Shown here in pieces: positions 44,222 to 51,131 of a DNA stretch of 64,000 nt. A program made the position numbers and the translations under genes. The stretch lies in contig NZ_JACIEU010000025.1 of assembly GCF_014197035.1 (NCBI RefSeq), positions 1 through 64,000 of the forward strand, in the 5' to 3' direction. Origin of the DNA: Sphingobium scionense (GTDB taxonomy: Bacteria > Pseudomonadota > Alphaproteobacteria > Sphingomonadales > Sphingomonadaceae). Positions within the stretch are counted from its first letter, which is position 1, and each line of letters begins with the position of its first letter. The notes under the pieces were generated by a model. It did no database searches, had not been told where the DNA came from, and saw nothing but the letters and a program-made list of their open reading frames with translations.

Positions 44222-47200
44222 ATGCTCAAGGCCGCGCTGCACCACCTGACCGCCTATCGCTATAGCCGCCCGATCCGTCTGGGCCCGCAAGTGATAAGAT
44301 TGCGGCCCGCGCCGCACAGTCGCACCAAGGTGCCCAATTATGCGCTGAAGATCGAGCCGGCGAACCATTTCCTCAACTGGCAGCAGGACCCGCACGGCAA
44401 CTGGCTGGCGCGGATCGTCTTTCCCGACCCGGTCGATCATTTCAGTATCGAGGTCGACCTGCTGGCCGATCTCGACATCATCAACCCGTTCGACTTCTTC
44501 GTCGAACCCTATGCGGAAAATTACCCCTTCAGCTATGACGAGCAGCTGGAGACCGATCTGGCGGCCTATTATGATGTCGAGGCGCAGGGGCCATCGTTCG
44601 AGGCGCTGGTCGCGCAGCATGCGTCGTTCGAGGGGCGGACGATCGACTTCCTGGTCGATGTGAACAGCAAGCTGCAGCAGCGTATCGGCTATGTCATCCG
44701 CATGGAAACGGGGGTGCAGTCGCCCGAGGAGACGCTGGACATCGGCACCGGATCGTGCCGCGATTCGGCCTGGCTGCTGGTGCAACTGCTGCGCCGGCTG
44801 GGCTTTGCCGCGCGCTTCGTGTCGGGCTATTCGATTCAACTTGTCGCGGATGTCGAGCCGATCGAAGGGCCGAAGGGCGTTACCCAGGATGTGGTCGACC
44901 TGCATGCCTGGGCCGAAGCCTATGTGCCCGGCGCCGGCTGGATCGCGCTCGACGCGACCAGTGGCATGTTCGCGGGCGAGGGGCATATCCCGCTCTGCGC
45001 CACGCCCCATCATCGGTCCGCAGCCCCGATCAGCGGCATGGCCGAACCGGCCGAGGTCGATTTCACCTTCGCCATGAATGTCAGCCGCATTGCCGAGGCG
45101 GTGCGGATCACCAAGCCCTTTACCGAGGGGCGCTGGGCATCGCTGATGGCGCTGGGCGAACAGGTGGACGCGGACCTGATCGCGCAGGATGTGCGACTGA
45201 CCACCGGCGGCGAGCCGACCTTCGTCGCGGTCGACGACCCGCAGGCGGGTGAGTGGAATGGCGACGCAGTCGGGCCAACCAAGGCGGGCTATGCCGACCG
45301 GCTGATCCGGCGGCTGCGCGATCGCTTCGCGCCCGGCGCGCTGCTGCATCATGGCCAGGGCAAATGGTATCCGGGCGAAAGCCTGCCGCGCTGGGGCTAT
45401 TCGATCTATTGGCGGGCGGACGGCGTGCCGATCTGGCGCGATGCCGGGCTGATCGCGGGCGAGCCGGAGGCAGGCGACAAGACCATCAGCGCCGAGGATG
45501 CCGGCCGCTTCCTGACCGCCATGGCGGACGGGCTGGGGGTCGAGACGGATTTCGTCCAGCCGGTGTTCGAGGATGCGCTGGCCTGGTCGGTGAAGGAGGC
45601 GGAATTGCCCGCCAATACCGAGCCGGGCGACCCCAAGTTCGACAATCCCGAGGAGCGCAGCCGGATGGTGCGCGCGTTCGAGGGCGGCCTTAGCAAGACG
45701 GTCGGCTATGTGCTGCCGATCCAGCGCTGGCAGACGCAGGCGAGTGCGCCGCGCTGGCAGAGCGAGGTATGGAAGGTGCGGCGCAAGGCGCTGTTCGCGG
45801 TGCCGGGGGATTCGGCGCTGGGCTATCGCCTGCCGCTGGGCACCCTGCCCTATGTGCCGCCGTCCGATTTCCCCTATATCCACCCACAGGATACGAGCGA
45901 GCCGCGCGCGCCGCTGGCCGATTATCGTGCCGAGGCGGCAGCCGAAACCAGCGCGCCGGCGGAACGGTTCGAGCGGTCCGAAATCGCCGCCGCCGAGCAT
46001 CAGGACCGGCAGGAACAGGTCTTCATCGAAGGGGCCGTGCGCACCGCCGTCACGGTCGAGCCGCGCGGCAATTTCCTGTCCGTCTTCGTGCCCCCGGTGA
46101 AGACGCTGGACGATTATCTGGAGTTGATTGCGCAGGTCGAGAAGGTGGCCGAGGCGACGCGCATCCCGGTGCGGATCGAGGGCTATGCCCCGCCGTCCGA
46201 CCCGCGCGTCAACGTGCTGAAGGTGACGCCCGATCCCGGCGTGGTCGAGGTGAATATCCAGCCGGCGAAAAGCTGGGCCGAGACGGTGGCGATTACCCAG
46301 GGCGTCTATGAGGATGCCCGCGAAGTGAAGATGACCGCCGACAAGTTCATGGTCGATGGCCGGTCGGTCGGCACCGGCGGCGGCAATCATCTGGTACTGG
46401 GCGGGGCGAGCGTGAACGACAGCCCGTTCATCCGCCGGCCGGACCTCTTGAAGAGCTTCGTCCTCTACTGGCAGCGGCACCCGTCGCTCTCCTATCTGTT
46501 TTCCGGCCTGTTCATCGGCCCGACCAGCCAGGCGCCGCGCATCGACGAGGCGCGGCACGACAGCCTGTATGAGTTGGAGATCGCGCTGGCGCAGGTGCCC
46601 AATCCGGTGCGCGACGGCGCGGACAAGCTGCCGCCGCCCTGGCTGGTCGACCGGCTGTTCCGCAACCTGCTGGTCGACGTGACCGGCAACACCCATCGCA
46701 CCGAAATCTGCATCGACAAGCTGTTCTCGCCCGACGGGCCGACCGGGCGCCTGGGCCTCGTCGAGTTTCGCGGGTTCGAGATGCCGCCAGACCCGCAGAT
46801 GAGCCTTGCCCAGCAATTGCTGCTGCGCGCGCTGACCGCCTGGTTCTGGCGCGAGCCGCAGCAGGGCAATCTGGTACGCTGGGGCACGGCGCTGCACGAC
46901 CGTTTCTTCCTGGGTCATTTCGTCTGGGCCGATTTCCTGGAGGTGCTGAACGACCTGCGCCAGGCGGGCTATGACTTCGACCCCAACTGGTTCGAGGCGC
47001 AGCGCCAGTTCCGCTTCCCGGTGCATGGCAGCGTGGAGGCCGGCGGCGTCGGGCTGGAAATCAGCCATGCGCTGGAGCCGTGGAATGTGCTGGGCGAGAC
47101 CGGCGCGATCGGCGGCACGGTGCGCTATGTCGACAGTTCGACCGAGCGGTTGCAGGTGCGCGTGTCGGACCTGGTCGCCGGGCGCCATATCGTCAGCTGC

Positions 47201-47566
47201 AACGGTCGGCGGGTGCCGATGACGCCGACCGGCGTGCCGGGCGAGGCGGTGGGCGGCGTGCGTTACAAGGCGTGGGCGCCGGCCAATTGCCTGCACCCCA
47301 ATCTGCCCGCCAATGCGCCGTTGACCTTCGACATATTCGACAGCTGGAGCGGGCGGTCGCTGGGTGGCTGCGTCTATCATGTCGCCCATCCGGGCGGGCG
47401 CAATTATGACGATGTGCCGATCAACAGCTATGAGGCGGAGGCGCGGCGCAAGGCGCGGTTCCAGGATCATGGCCATACGCCCGGCCCCGTCGACATGCCG
47501 CCGGCCGAAAGCCCAAGCGAATTTCCGATGACGCTGGACCTTCGGTTCAGGCATCCCGAATATTAG
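44222..47566 (+). CDS. Large transglutaminase-like / DUF2126 fusion protein
   Basis: This 1114-residue protein begins with a bacterial transglutaminase N-terminal domain ([20 protein letters not shown]) and a transglutaminase-like core. The catalytic triad is visible: Cys179 in [10 protein letters not shown], His228 in [11 protein letters not shown] and Asp244 in [10 protein letters not shown]. The remaining ~800 residues are a DUF2126 region with [18 protein letters not shown] and [10 protein letters not shown]. The ATG at 44222 is chosen by family alignment; a TTG 69 bases earlier has no support. By family knowledge such proteins belong to predicted amide-forming/peptide-modifying operons whose substrate is not established. 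Its stop is 3 bp from the next gene. Confidence 0.9.
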
Positions 47567-47569
47567 ACG

Positions 47570-50053
47570 ATGACCGACTCGCCTGTCCTGCCGGGTCTCG
47601 AAGCGTCCGGCTGGGCCGGCGACTATCTGGCGCGCGCGTCGGGCGGCGACCTGTTCGCCGGGGCGCCGGCGGAGATGGCGCCACGCTGGCGGGCGATGCT
47701 GGATCGCCTGTCGGAACAGGGACAGGGTGATCCCGCGACGCTGGCCGGCAATGTCGAGCGGCAAGCGCAGGATCTGGGCCTGGCGTTCCGCCTGACCGGT
47801 GACGAGCAGGAGCGGCCCTGGCCGCTGAGCCCGATCCCGATGCTGATCGGCGCGGGCGAATGGACCCGGATCGAACAGGGGCTGATGCAGCGGGCCGAGC
47901 TGCTGGAGCGGGTGATCAGCGACATCTACAGCACCCAGAGCCTGGTGCGCGAGGGCAAGCTGCCCGCCGCCGTAGTGACCGGCAGCCCGCATTATTGGCG
48001 GGTGATGACCGGGGCGGCGCCACCGCGCGGCCATTATCTCCATTTCTATGCCGCCGATCTGGGGCGCGGGCCGGATGGCGAATGGCGGGTGCTGGCCGAC
48101 CGGGTCCGGACCCCTGTCGGCGTCGGCTATGCGCTGGAAAACAGGCTGGCGCTGTCACGGGCGACCGGCGACCTGCTGGGCGCGATGAACACAAGGCGGC
48201 TGGCGCCCTTCTTCGCCGACCTGCGCCGAGGCCTGGCGGTCGATTGCCAGCGCGCCGATCCGCGCATCGGCCTGCTGACGCCGGGCCGGTTCAACCAGAG
48301 CTATGCCGAACAGGCGCATCTGGCCCGTTATCTGGGCCTGATGCTGGTCGAGGGCGATGACCTGATCGTCAGCGACGGGCGCCTGTTCGTGCGCACGATC
48401 GAGGGGCTGAAGCGGATCGACGGGCTGTGGCGCTGGATGGACAGCCGCTTCCTCGATCCGCTGGCGTTCGACGGGGAATCGCGGATCGGTGTGCCCGACC
48501 TGTATGATGCCTGCGCGCGCGGCGGGCTGATGGTCAGTAACTGGCCGGGCGCGGGCGTCATCGAGGCGCGCGCCTTTGCCGCCTTCCTGCCGCAACTGGC
48601 CAAGGCCCTGCTGGGCACCGAATTGCTGCTGCCCAATATCGCCACCTGGTGGTGCGGGCAGGAACGCGAACGCGGCCATGTGACCGGCCATCTGGACGAA
48701 TTGCTGGTGGCATCGGCGTTCGACCGGGATGCGGCGGGGCTTGGCCCGGCGCGGTCGGTGCAGGGATCGACGCTGGACGCGGACCAGCGCGCGACCTTGC
48801 TGGAGGCGATGGCGCGGCGGCCGATGGACTATGTCGGGCAGGAAGTGGTGAAGCTGTCCACCACCCCGGCGATCGTCGGCGGACGACTGACTCCCCTGCC
48901 CTTCACCCTGCGCGTGTTCGTGGCACGGGACGGCCTCGGCCAATGGCGGATCATGCCGGGCGCGTTCGCGCGGCTGGCCGCCCATGGCGATATTCGTGCC
49001 GCTTTGATGGGCGAAGGCGACATGTCGGCCGACATGTGCGTGATCGACAGCCAGCCGGTGCCGCCCGATACGCTGTTGGGCGATGGCGGCGCGCCGGCGA
49101 TCCGGCGGATCGGCGGGCTGTTGCCGACCAAGGCGGCCGACAATCTCTATTGGCTGGGTCGCTATATCGAGCGGACCGAGATGACGTTGCGGGTGATCCG
49201 CGCGGTGGTGGGCGAATCGATCGAGGTCGATATGGGGCCATCGTCGGATTCGCCGACCATGGCGCGGCTTGCGGGGCAGCTTGCCCTGTGGGGCGCCACC
49301 GGAAACGCGGCGCAGCCGGTCGGCGCGCTATGCGCGCAGGCGCTGGGCGATGCGCGCCAGCCGGGCAGCGTGCGCGCGCTGATGGGCGTGGTCGCCAATA
49401 TCGGCGAGGGGCTGCGCGACCGGCTGGCGACCGATTTCTGGCGGCTGGTGCGCCTGCCCCTGCCGGCGTTCGACGGGGCGGTGACCGAGACGCTGCTGGA
49501 CGCGGCATCGCGCATGATCGAACGGATTTCGGCGCTGTCGGGGCTGGCGGCGGAGAATATGGCGCGCACCGAAGGGTGGCGCTTCCATGACATGGGACGA
49601 CGGATCGAGCGGGCGATCACCGGATGCCGGCTGACGCTGCTGCTGGGCAGCGATTGGGCATCGGCCGACGACCTGACCGTCCTGCTCGACCTGCATGACA
49701 GCCAGATCAGCTATCGCAACCGCTATTTGACCGGCCCGTCGCTGCCGCCGGTGCGCGATCTGGTGGCGCTGGAGCCGCAGAATCCCCGGTCGATCGCCTA
49801 TCAGTCGCAGCGCATCGCCGAGCATGTCGCTGCCCTGCCGACACTGCGCGGCGATGGGATGCCGGAGGAACCGCAGCGACTGGCCGGCGCGCTGGCGGCG
49901 ACGCTGGCGCCGCTGACCGGCGACATGCTGACCATGGCGGCGCTGACCGATATCGAAAGCCGGCTGCTCGCCTTGTCCGACGCGATCGGCCAGCGCTATT
50001 TCCTGCAGGTCCGCAAGACGGAAAAGGTCGAGGGCGCGGAGCTGCTGTCATGA
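47570..50053 (+). CDS. Circularly permuted ATP-grasp / alpha-E domain fusion protein
   Basis: This 827-residue protein contains two parts usually found as separate neighbouring genes. Residues about 60-460 are a circularly permuted ATP-grasp domain (RVISDIYSTQSLVREGKLPA; GVGYALENRLALSRA; QEVVKLSTTPAIVGGRL) expected to form an acyl-phosphate and ligate an amine. Residues about 510-820 are an alpha-E (DUF403) helical domain starting LLPTKAADNLYWLGRYIERT. It starts 3 bp after the transglutaminase fusion and ends overlapping the second transglutaminase by 4 bases. In related systems the ATP-grasp is thought to add amino acids or peptides to an unknown acceptor. Confidence 0.9.
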   Translation: MTDSPVLPGLEASGWAGDYLARASGGDLFAGAPAEMAPRWRAMLDRLSEQGQGDPATLAGNVERQAQDLGLAFRLTGDEQERPWPLSPIPMLIGAGEWTRIEQGLMQRAELLERVISDIYSTQSLVREGKLPAAVVTGSPHYWRVMTGAAPPRGHYLHFYAADLGRGPDGEWRVLADRVRTPVGVGYALENRLALSRATGDLLGAMNTRRLAPFFADLRRGLAVDCQRADPRIGLLTPGRFNQSYAEQAHLARYLGLMLVEGDDLIVSDGRLFVRTIEGLKRIDGLWRWMDSRFLDPLAFDGESRIGVPDLYDACARGGLMVSNWPGAGVIEARAFAAFLPQLAKALLGTELLLPNIATWWCGQERERGHVTGHLDELLVASAFDRDAAGLGPARSVQGSTLDADQRATLLEAMARRPMDYVGQEVVKLSTTPAIVGGRLTPLPFTLRVFVARDGLGQWRIMPGAFARLAAHGDIRAALMGEGDMSADMCVIDSQPVPPDTLLGDGGAPAIRRIGGLLPTKAADNLYWLGRYIERTEMTLRVIRAVVGESIEVDMGPSSDSPTMARLAGQLALWGATGNAAQPVGALCAQALGDARQPGSVRALMGVVANIGEGLRDRLATDFWRLVRLPLPAFDGAVTETLLDAASRMIERISALSGLAAENMARTEGWRFHDMGRRIERAITGCRLTLLLGSDWASADDLTVLLDLHDSQISYRNRYLTGPSLPPVRDLVALEPQNPRSIAYQSQRIAEHVAALPTLRGDGMPEEPQRLAGALAATLAPLTGDMLTMAALTDIESRLLALSDAIGQRYFLQVRKTEKVEGAELLS

Positions 50054-50955
50054 TCTACCATGTCCGTCACAGAAGCATATTGCGCTATGGCGCGCCGGTG
50101 CGGGTCGCCCGCTTCAATGTGCGGTTGCGGCCGATGGCCTGGGCCGGGCAATGGACCGCCGACTATGCCTTGAGCGTCGATCCCGCGCCGCTGTCGATCG
50201 AGGCGCGGCCGGGCGCCTGGCCGGTGCATGTCGAGCGGCTGGTGATCGACCAGCCATTGCGGCAATTGACGATCGAGAGCCGGTTCCGCGCCGGGGTGGC
50301 GGGCGGCGTGCCGATCCTGCCCCAGGCGGACGACCCCAGCATCGCCAGGGTGGCGCGCGCGGCGCTGGCCGATCGCGACATCAGCGCCTCTGCGCCCGCG
50401 CAATTCCTCTATGCCTCGCCCCGCGCGCCGATGCTGGACGCGATCGGCAGTTGGGCGGGCGACATGCTGGCACCCGACCGGCCGATCGTCGCGGCTGCAT
50501 GGGAACTGGCGCAGCGGATCAAGGCGGACTTCGCCTATGATCCCAGCGCCACCGATGCCGGCACGCCGGTGGCGGACGCCTTTGCCGCGCGCCATGGCGT
50601 GTGCCAGGACTTCGCTCATGTGATGGTGGTGGCGCTGCGCCTCGCTGGCCTGCCCACCGCCTATGTCAGCGGCTATCTGCGCACCTATCCGCCGCCGGGC
50701 ATGCCTCGGCTGGTCGGCGCCGACGCCATGCATGCCTGGGTGATGCTGTGGTGCGGGCCGACGCGTGGGTGGATCGGCTTTGACCCCACCAATGGCGTCA
50801 TCACCGGCGAGGATCATCTGTTCATCGCCATGGGCCGCGACTATGCCGATGTCGCGCCGATGGACGGGCTGTTCGTCGGCGGATCGGGCCAGAGCATCAG
50901 CGTCGCCGTCGATGTCGTGCCCGAGGACGAACAGGCAAAAGAGGAAGTCGCATGA
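50050..50955 (+). CDS. Transglutaminase-like cysteine peptidase-fold protein
   Basis: This 301-residue member of the same transglutaminase family as the large fusion protein is a standalone core. The catalytic residues are Cys185 in HGVCQDFAHVM, His228 in ADAMHAWVML and Asp245 in WIGFDPTNGV. The N-terminal part (HVRHRSILRYGAPVRVARFN) is the usual beta-rich domain. It starts in an ATGA overlap with the ATP-grasp gene. Enzymes of this kind can cleave or re-form amide bonds, so with the ATP-grasp partner a peptide-adding and peptide-trimming cycle is plausible. No secretion signal is seen. Confidence 0.92.
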   Translation: MIYHVRHRSILRYGAPVRVARFNVRLRPMAWAGQWTADYALSVDPAPLSIEARPGAWPVHVERLVIDQPLRQLTIESRFRAGVAGGVPILPQADDPSIARVARAALADRDISASAPAQFLYASPRAPMLDAIGSWAGDMLAPDRPIVAAAWELAQRIKADFAYDPSATDAGTPVADAFAARHGVCQDFAHVMVVALRLAGLPTAYVSGYLRTYPPPGMPRLVGADAMHAWVMLWCGPTRGWIGFDPTNGVITGEDHLFIAMGRDYADVAPMDGLFVGGSGQSISVAVDVVPEDEQAKEEVA

Positions 50956-51131
50956 TCGCCGCCATCATCCTGGTCCTGGCCGGCCTTTACTGCCTGGCGC
51001 GCGGCGTCATGGACCTGCGCGCGAAACGCTGGGTCTGGGGCGTGCTCGGGATCGTTGCGGGAATCGCGATCATGGCGGCGCCGATCCCGACGCAGGTGCA
51101 GGTGGAACTGCCGGCGGCGCAGGGCCGATAG
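50952..51131 (+). CDS. Small membrane protein coupled to the transglutaminase/ATP-grasp operon
   Basis: This is a 59-residue protein whose ATG overlaps the stop of the second transglutaminase (ATGA). It has two hydrophobic stretches (MIAAIILVLAGLYCLA at 1-16 and WVWGVLGIVAGIAIMAA at 28-44) joined by a basic linker, and ends in a short polar tail with TQVQVELPAAQGR. It is probably a two-helix inner-membrane hairpin. The tight overlap argues that it is a real member of the operon. No homologue is recognised, so its function is unknown; an anchor for the cytoplasmic enzymes or a modified target are possible. Confidence 0.6.
   Translation: MIAAIILVLAGLYCLARGVMDLRAKRWVWGVLGIVAGIAIMAAPIPTQVQVELPAAQGR

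Follow-up and report, generated by a model that had tools for sequence, protein, structure and literature searches.

The window, a 64,000-nucleotide stretch of a Sphingobium scionense contig, carries a four-gene operon (44222-51131) that belongs to a known family of DUF2126, transglutaminase, circularly permuted (CP) ATP-grasp, and Alpha-E clusters, the function of which has so far only been predicted. The ATP-grasp domain of its second gene has lost the VLEDN motif along with all compared copies of its type and is probably a pseudo-ligase, and DUF2126 is then the likely ATP-using enzyme of the cluster and its predicted ligase.

Operon layout and conservation

Four open reading frames, genes A to D, lie on the plus strand (Table 1), with a 3-bp gap between A and B and 4-bp overlaps between B and C and between C and D. 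A sequence-only reading of this DNA had proposed the same gene order, fusions, and spacings, and the open frames and Pfam domains above cut-offs confirm them. Gene A joins Bact_transglu_N (residues 6-81) and Transglut_core (142-245) to DUF2126 (275-1108; 1288.7 bits), the fusion that marks DUF2126-type clusters. Gene B carries CP_ATPgrasp_2 (90-470), along with CP_ATPgrasp_1, followed by Alpha-E (518-811; 214 bits) with its ER motif; W30, R33, Y34, E36, and R37 of Alpha-E are invariant among 53 sequences. Gene C contains Bact_transglu_N and Transglut_core. The two intact Cys-His-Asp triads of the earlier reading are likewise present, with C179/H228/D244 of gene A invariant across 14 aligned sequences and the counterpart residues of gene C across 12 (L104 was left out of this alignment), and we take these positions to be transglutaminase catalytic triads.

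Table 1. Features of the operon, with positions numbered from the first letter of the window
Feature	Coordinates	Strand	Description	Length or basis
Gene A	44222..47566	+	Transglutaminase (Bact_transglu_N + Transglut_core) fused to DUF2126, a predicted GS-like amidoligase	1114 aa; Pfam
Gene B	47570..50053	+	Circularly permuted ATP-grasp fused to Alpha-E; degenerate ATP-grasp motifs	827 aa; reference set of 27 unfused copies, plus PDB 3n6x
Gene B, residues 171-193	48080..48148	+	EWRVLADRVRTPVGVGYALENRL; VLEDN stands here in unfused copies and in the PDB 3n6x counterpart	
Gene C	50050..50955	+	Stand-alone transglutaminase-like protein, C185/H228/D245	301 aa
Gene D	50952..51131	+	Lineage-restricted accessory gene; protein with two hydrophobic stretches	59 aa

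The A-B-C order of the window recurs at 71 of 80 database loci, which were the top-ranking 80 among 580 confirmed loci and are biased toward close relatives; the other nine comprise five at contig ends, three with gene A alone, and one with unfused genes. Within Sphingobium the three-enzyme order is found at 62 of the 63 inspected loci (a 64th genome with gene C, G219, lies outside this set and has no gene D match). DUF2126 is strongly conserved, at 53-79% identity to the window across 64 loci, and Alpha-E ranges from 26 to 80% across 52. Three genomes encode the fused gene B and gene C with no DUF2126 match, which suggests that the B/C pair has some role independent of DUF2126.

The amide chemistry envisaged in the sequence-only reading had already been predicted in print. 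A transglutaminase-ligase fusion family of the Mycobacterium tuberculosis Rv2566 type, published in 2008 (Iyer, Burroughs and Aravind; PMC2588565), has the same N-terminal transglutaminase-like domain and predicted carboxylate-amine ligase as gene A, and the system is therefore not new. The Anbu operon (PMC5666114, PMC6376114) shares three domain families with the window operon in the same order but differs in that the window operon contains DUF2126, lacks Anbu, and encodes a degenerate ATP-grasp fused to Alpha-E. Excerpts of the same two papers, both from 2017, name no physiological substrate for this related cluster, and our literature search returned none for the DUF2126 cluster.

Degeneration of the fused ATP-grasp and the candidate ligase

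The E and N of VLEDN, presumably magnesium ligands by analogy with other ATP-grasps, are both kept in 27 of 27 unfused ATP-grasp domains (alignment A6 of the unfused set omits 2 of the 27). Among 165 copies of the window's type (163 fused and 2 at contig edges), 164 keep neither residue, one keeps E only, and none keeps N; the window itself reads VLADR. These copies, which represent 161 distinct sequences with some genomes included twice, were classed by whether the open frame continues into Alpha-E, and sorting by best-matching query gives the same split. Four additional fused copies, three of them from genomes with no DUF2126 match, also lack VLEDN. The glycine pattern of the GSGGYG loop, a region of uncertain alignment, appears in about 1 of the 165. 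PDB 3n6x, a putative glutathionylspermidine synthase of the CP-ATP-grasp type with homology to gene B over residues 67-473 (E 1.6e-61), retains VLEDN, GSGGYG, and NSSQGGGTKDTW, whereas gene B lacks all three. A check of titles and abstracts, with Iyer 2009 falling outside it, found no prior mention of a degenerate fused ATP-grasp, and the motif loss did not figure in the sequence-only reading.

These losses weaken the ATP-driven ligation that the earlier reading assigned to this domain, as part of a cycle in which the two transglutaminases trim or transfer what the ATP-grasp has joined. For gene B to be the active ligase of such a cycle its metal site would have to be rewired, and we consider this improbable given how completely N, E, and the glycine loop have gone. 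An active enzyme would fit the retention of gene B with gene C at nearly all loci having gene A, the conserved set that the fused-specific residues form of their own, and the release of phosphate from ATP by a purified unfused-type relative from the Anbu operon of Yersinia bercovieri (PMC6376114). Gene B shares 51 of the 157 columns invariant in the unfused set, including D181, R184, E208, and R210 (L275 numbering), and a Lys and a GG.SKDTW stretch are retained in some Pseudomonas, beta, and other fused copies; nucleotide binding by fused copies may therefore persist. Against activity in the window's own lineage, the Lys and the KDTW stretch are also gone from the sphingomonad copies compared.

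With gene B probably a pseudo-ligase, attention turns to DUF2126, which Pfam describes as a "putative amidoligase" and which the sequence-only reading did not count as a ligase. A glutamine synthetase (GS) fold has been assigned in print to the Rv2566-type family (PMC2588565). In our own comparisons, hmmsearch against PDB returned nothing credible for a GS-like fold in DUF2126, and hhalign of DUF2126 with glutamine synthetase gave a probability of 0.2%; a duplicated template that allows for circular permutation brought no improvement, the control of GS against a divergent GS reaching only 33%. Alpha-E similarly had no credible match in PDB, the best ones being designed proteins.

A lineage-restricted small membrane gene

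Gene D, the hydrophobic stretches of which were read from its sequence, matches no Pfam family above cut-off but is a real, selected gene, with dN well below dS, and an optional accessory of some Sphingobium. All 13 close copies (at least 78% identity, with two 19-residue fragments left out) lie directly 3' of gene C and overlap it by ATGA. They adjoin 13 of the 63 Sphingobium operons and none of the 30 from other genera, at two of which (L101 and L124) gene C is unreadable; at L098 the sequence runs merely 127 nt beyond gene C, and this genome has no gene D match. In the published description of the Rv2566 type (PMC2588565), no conserved small ORF resembling Pup is reported near the genes, which sets that family apart from the 13 Sphingobium loci with their small membrane gene. 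A paralogue of gene D in the same genome has a RecN/SMC-like gene and a DNA ligase gene close by, and no gene D was found in viral contigs or plasmids. Gene D was also considered as an invariant partner of the three enzymes and rejected as such.

The linkage that the sequence-only reading looked for among sphingomonads exists wherever a close copy does, but most operons do without the gene, and the membrane role it proposed through this protein is left weak rather than refuted. That gene D is a functional subunit anchoring a complex at the membrane appears quite unlikely to us: its fixed place after gene C and its purifying selection would be expected of a subunit, but it is missing beside 50 of 63 Sphingobium and 30 of 30 other-genus operons, and its paralogue keeps other company. 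The identical ATGA overlap and an 18-nt in-register remnant (E 0.009) in L146 and L148, loci close to a genome that bears gene D, lean toward repeated loss of gene D rather than gain, while equal-weight parsimony on a tree without L150, L153, and L178 gives seven changes and a root of "absent."

A second ATP-grasp locus, possible nitrogen control, and a proposed mechanism

The same genome encodes a separate ATP-grasp/Alpha-E/transglutaminase/Anbu operon (L275) with VLEDN intact. Proteasome-family matches in this genome fall on contigs C3 and C11 only, with none on C25. In seven other loci (L251, L252, L254, L258, L262, L265, and L330) the unfused module and the DUF2126 module stand in a single row. 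Co-occurrence gives no support for a partnership with the Anbu locus, since Anbu alone is not enriched in DUF2126-positive genomes of the family (29 of 33, versus 95 of 116 DUF2126-negative; p 0.6). The unfused set is present in 33 of 33 versus 97 of 116 (p 0.008), a comparison that ignores phylogeny, uses hand-merged lists, and was given no weight; a Fisher co-occurrence test that counted the fused Alpha-E was rejected as circular. We tentatively suggest, at somewhat less than even chances, a machine of two modules, where an intact ATP-grasp/Alpha-E/transglutaminase set would work with a family-wide pseudo-ATP-grasp/Alpha-E/transglutaminase set and a separate GS-like ligase, the fused ATP-grasp serving as an allosteric or substrate-presenting pseudoenzyme.

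Control by nitrogen starvation has been published in Burkholderia and is suggested in Pseudomonas, but not in sphingomonads, by sigma-54-like sites. In Burkholderia cenocepacia, a cluster of DUF404/407, DUF403, transglutaminase, and large transglutaminase genes depends on NtrC/sigma-54 (PMC5491218), and nitrogen limitation of Pseudomonas putida strongly induces three of four genes of an Anbu-type operon (PMC7801951), with PP_2685 and PP_2688 likewise induced (PMC8050072). A sigma-54-like site precedes gene A at 20 of 60 database loci versus 0.22 in shuffles, but 17 of the 20 belong to related Pseudomonas and are therefore not independent. Such observations could favor a function without amide ligation, in which DUF2126 and the transglutaminases act on proteins or peptides to free ammonia or glutamate under nitrogen starvation and gene B serves as substrate receptor. 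We regard this as unlikely: the site precedes gene A in 0 of 88 sphingomonad operons, and a looser pattern is found in 11 of the 88 (versus 2.15 in shuffles) at scattered positions, the window not among them. The looser pattern was also absent before the first gene of Burkholderia clusters L258 and L330 and before 20 sphingomonad unfused operons, and in the P. putida data (PMC7801951) the increase for Anbu was only 1.12-fold in the first strain column.

The explanation we favor, which as a whole we judge to have an even chance of being correct, keeps DUF2126 as the ligase. It would ligate an amine onto a carboxylate, the acid being probably glutamate-like and part of a peptide or small molecule, and the transglutaminase domain of gene A together with gene C would cleave this amide or transfer it. 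Gene B, as a catalytically silent ATP-grasp/Alpha-E protein, may hold the substrate or partners, perhaps acting with the intact set encoded elsewhere in the genome, and gene D would be an optional membrane accessory. Should the fused ATP-grasp prove inactive, assays directed at it would fail and would be better aimed at DUF2126 or at the intact ATP-grasp encoded separately. The comparison also maps how the modules of this family are arranged, joined in Burkholderia and split in the genome of the window.

Composition and distribution of the cluster

The four genes, with both fusions described in the sequence-only reading, are present as open genes, the first three with matching Pfam domains, and the Cys, His, and Asp of the transglutaminase domains, which are the catalytic residues, are invariant in alignments of relatives of genes A and C, bearing out both triads. 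A prolyl oligopeptidase gene lies upstream of the operon and a convergent P450 gene downstream.

Coordinates of the operon and of related features at other loci (L, locus; G, genome; C, contig)
Feature	Position	Strand	Content
Gene A	44222-47566	+	Pfam: transglutaminase + DUF2126
Gene B	47570-50053	+	Pfam: CP_ATPgrasp_2 + Alpha-E
Gene C	50050-50955	+	Pfam: transglutaminase
Gene D	50952-51131	+	Pfam: no family over cut-off
Anbu-type operon, own genome	L275:4151-8309, contig C11		complete; CP-ATP-grasp (intact VLEDN), Alpha-E, transglutaminase, Anbu-like
Gene D paralogue, own genome	L276:3618-3812		near RecN/SMC-like gene and DNA ligase gene
Short gene A (G093)	L125:6010-6924		only ~305 last residues; B and C intact behind
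Insert between A and B	L113:6321-7448		acyltransferase (Acyl_transf_3) gene
D fragments	G238:C1:4441888, G239:C1:4598917		19 residues, 79% identical to gene D residues 38-56, ~1.5 kb from D

Among the best 80 of 580 confirmed database loci, 71 show the order A-B-C, and most of the hosts are Alpha-, Beta-, or Gammaproteobacteria, joined by single MAGs that carry the names Pedosphaera, Bryobacterales, and Eremiobacterota. In five of these 80 loci the cluster runs into a contig end (L189, L192, L226, L235, and L260), three hold gene A alone (L207, L219, and L222), and one (L257) carries unfused genes behind gene A. All three genes are present in 62 of the 63 Sphingobium loci inspected, the one exception (L153) starting inside gene B, and all three are found in 28 of 30 loci from other genera of the family, where L101 has gene A alone and L124 ends inside gene B. 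DUF2126 was found in 33 of the 149 genomes of the family sample; fused B plus C occurs without a DUF2126 match in three genomes (G090, G127, and G139), and in another (G057) gene A is encoded away from the B-C pair. The shortened gene A of L125 has no contig end or N nearby, and L115 shows a 1.2-kb gap similar to the A-B insert of L113. Given the widespread A-B-C order and the 2008 description of a transglutaminase fused to a GS-fold ligase (available portion of PMC2588565), the cluster as such is not new, and the operon is a typical representative of a cluster that is known but still unsolved.

An optional small membrane gene

In whole-genome searches, 21 of 94 Sphingobium genomes and 7 of the 149 genomes of the family sample gave D-like matches. 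The proposed linkage of the small protein to the enzymes held in part: of the 63 Sphingobium loci inspected, 13 have gene D directly behind gene C, the two overlapping by ATGA, but it is missing there in the other 50 and in all 30 loci of other genera (gene C being readable in 28). Two 19-residue fragments aside, these 13 copies are the only ones with at least 78% identity, and by coordinates none of the weaker matches among the 94 Sphingobium genomes lies next to gene C. Over the first 44 codons, comparison with 12 relatives gave dN of 0 to 0.14 and dS of 0.15 to 0.69, which indicates that gene D is real and under selection. The genomes that carry it are dispersed across the A+B+C tree (60 loci; 7 changes), and L146/L148 retain an 18-nt in-register remnant. 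Repeated loss is our preferred reading, although parsimony alone does not favor it. Gene D is an optional small membrane gene.

A plausible link to nitrogen

Published data, taken from the accessible parts of each paper, suggest a link between the family and nitrogen. In a Burkholderia cenocepacia H111 ntrC mutant, a cluster of DUF404/407, DUF403, transglutaminase, and large transglutaminase genes is listed at -6.0 to -9.4 (PMC5491218), and from the gene order in Burkholderia locus L330 we infer that the large protein is a DUF2126 fusion. Pseudomonas putida PP_2686 to PP_2688 rise 11- to 15-fold under nitrogen limitation in the first strain column of PMC7801951, where the Anbu gene PP_2685 stands at 1.12; PP_2685 and PP_2688 are both up in PMC8050072, and in marine metagenomes the counts of these domains are tied to urea use (PMC3597751). 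Of 60 database loci, 20 have a sigma-54-like site, TGG[CT][AG][CT]N5TTGC, ahead of gene A (shuffles gave 0.22). It lies, near-identical, 59 to 60 nt before gene A in 17 Pseudomonas loci (among L224 to L264) and L237, and farther upstream in L241 and L208. A GCAC...GGTGC site was seen upstream of it in L237 and L264. The same pattern precedes gene A in 0 of 88 sphingomonad loci; a looser one occurs in 11 of the 88 at scattered positions (2.15 in shuffles) and is absent from the window. Expression data and site distribution together make the link plausible for the family and leave it unproven here.

A degenerate ATP-grasp and a second, intact locus

We compared 192 ATP-grasp domains from the collected loci, classed by whether the open frame continues into Alpha-E (27 unfused, 163 fused, and 2 at a contig edge). 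The E and N of the VLEDN motif are kept in all 27 unfused copies, with which PDB 3n6x agrees, and both are gone from 164 of the 165 fused and contig-edge copies, weakening the sequence-only reading of this ATP-grasp as the ligase. The one other copy (L201) retains E only, any acid occupies the E position in just 15 of the 165, and gene B of the window reads VLADR. Among 157 columns invariant in the unfused copies, 51 are at least 90% identical in the 165 and 43 are less than 10% the same; the GSGGYG loop pattern is left in about one, with alignment unsure at the loop. Among 22 of the copies, a Lys and a GG.SKDTW stretch persist in those of Pseudomonas, in part of the beta ones, and in a few others, and are lost from those of sphingomonads, which looks like stepwise decay. 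Loss of the E-x-N pair, which we take by analogy with other ATP-grasps to bind magnesium, makes it unlikely that gene B is a ligase. We found no earlier report of this degeneracy in the searchable literature, a scope outside which the 2009 prediction paper falls; two Anbu papers, in the portions available, summarize that prediction as peptide synthesis or tagging.

The genome also carries an unfused locus on contig C11, encoding an ATP-grasp of 495 aa, an Alpha-E protein of 310 aa, a transglutaminase of 287 aa, and an Anbu-like protein of 245 aa. An Anbu-like gene accompanies 19 of the 27 unfused copies. Both modules share one strand in Burkholderia L258, L330, and L252 (the last truncated at the start), as well as in L251, L254, L262, and L265, in the order unfused ATP-grasp, Alpha-E, transglutaminase-DUF2126, fused ATP-grasp-Alpha-E, and transglutaminase, with an extra transglutaminase after Alpha-E, ahead of transglutaminase-DUF2126, in Burkholderia. 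Within the family sample, 124 of 149 genomes have Anbu; among the 33 with DUF2126 it is present in 29, no more than expected. The ligase role should move from the ATP-grasp of the operon to DUF2126 and the separate intact locus.
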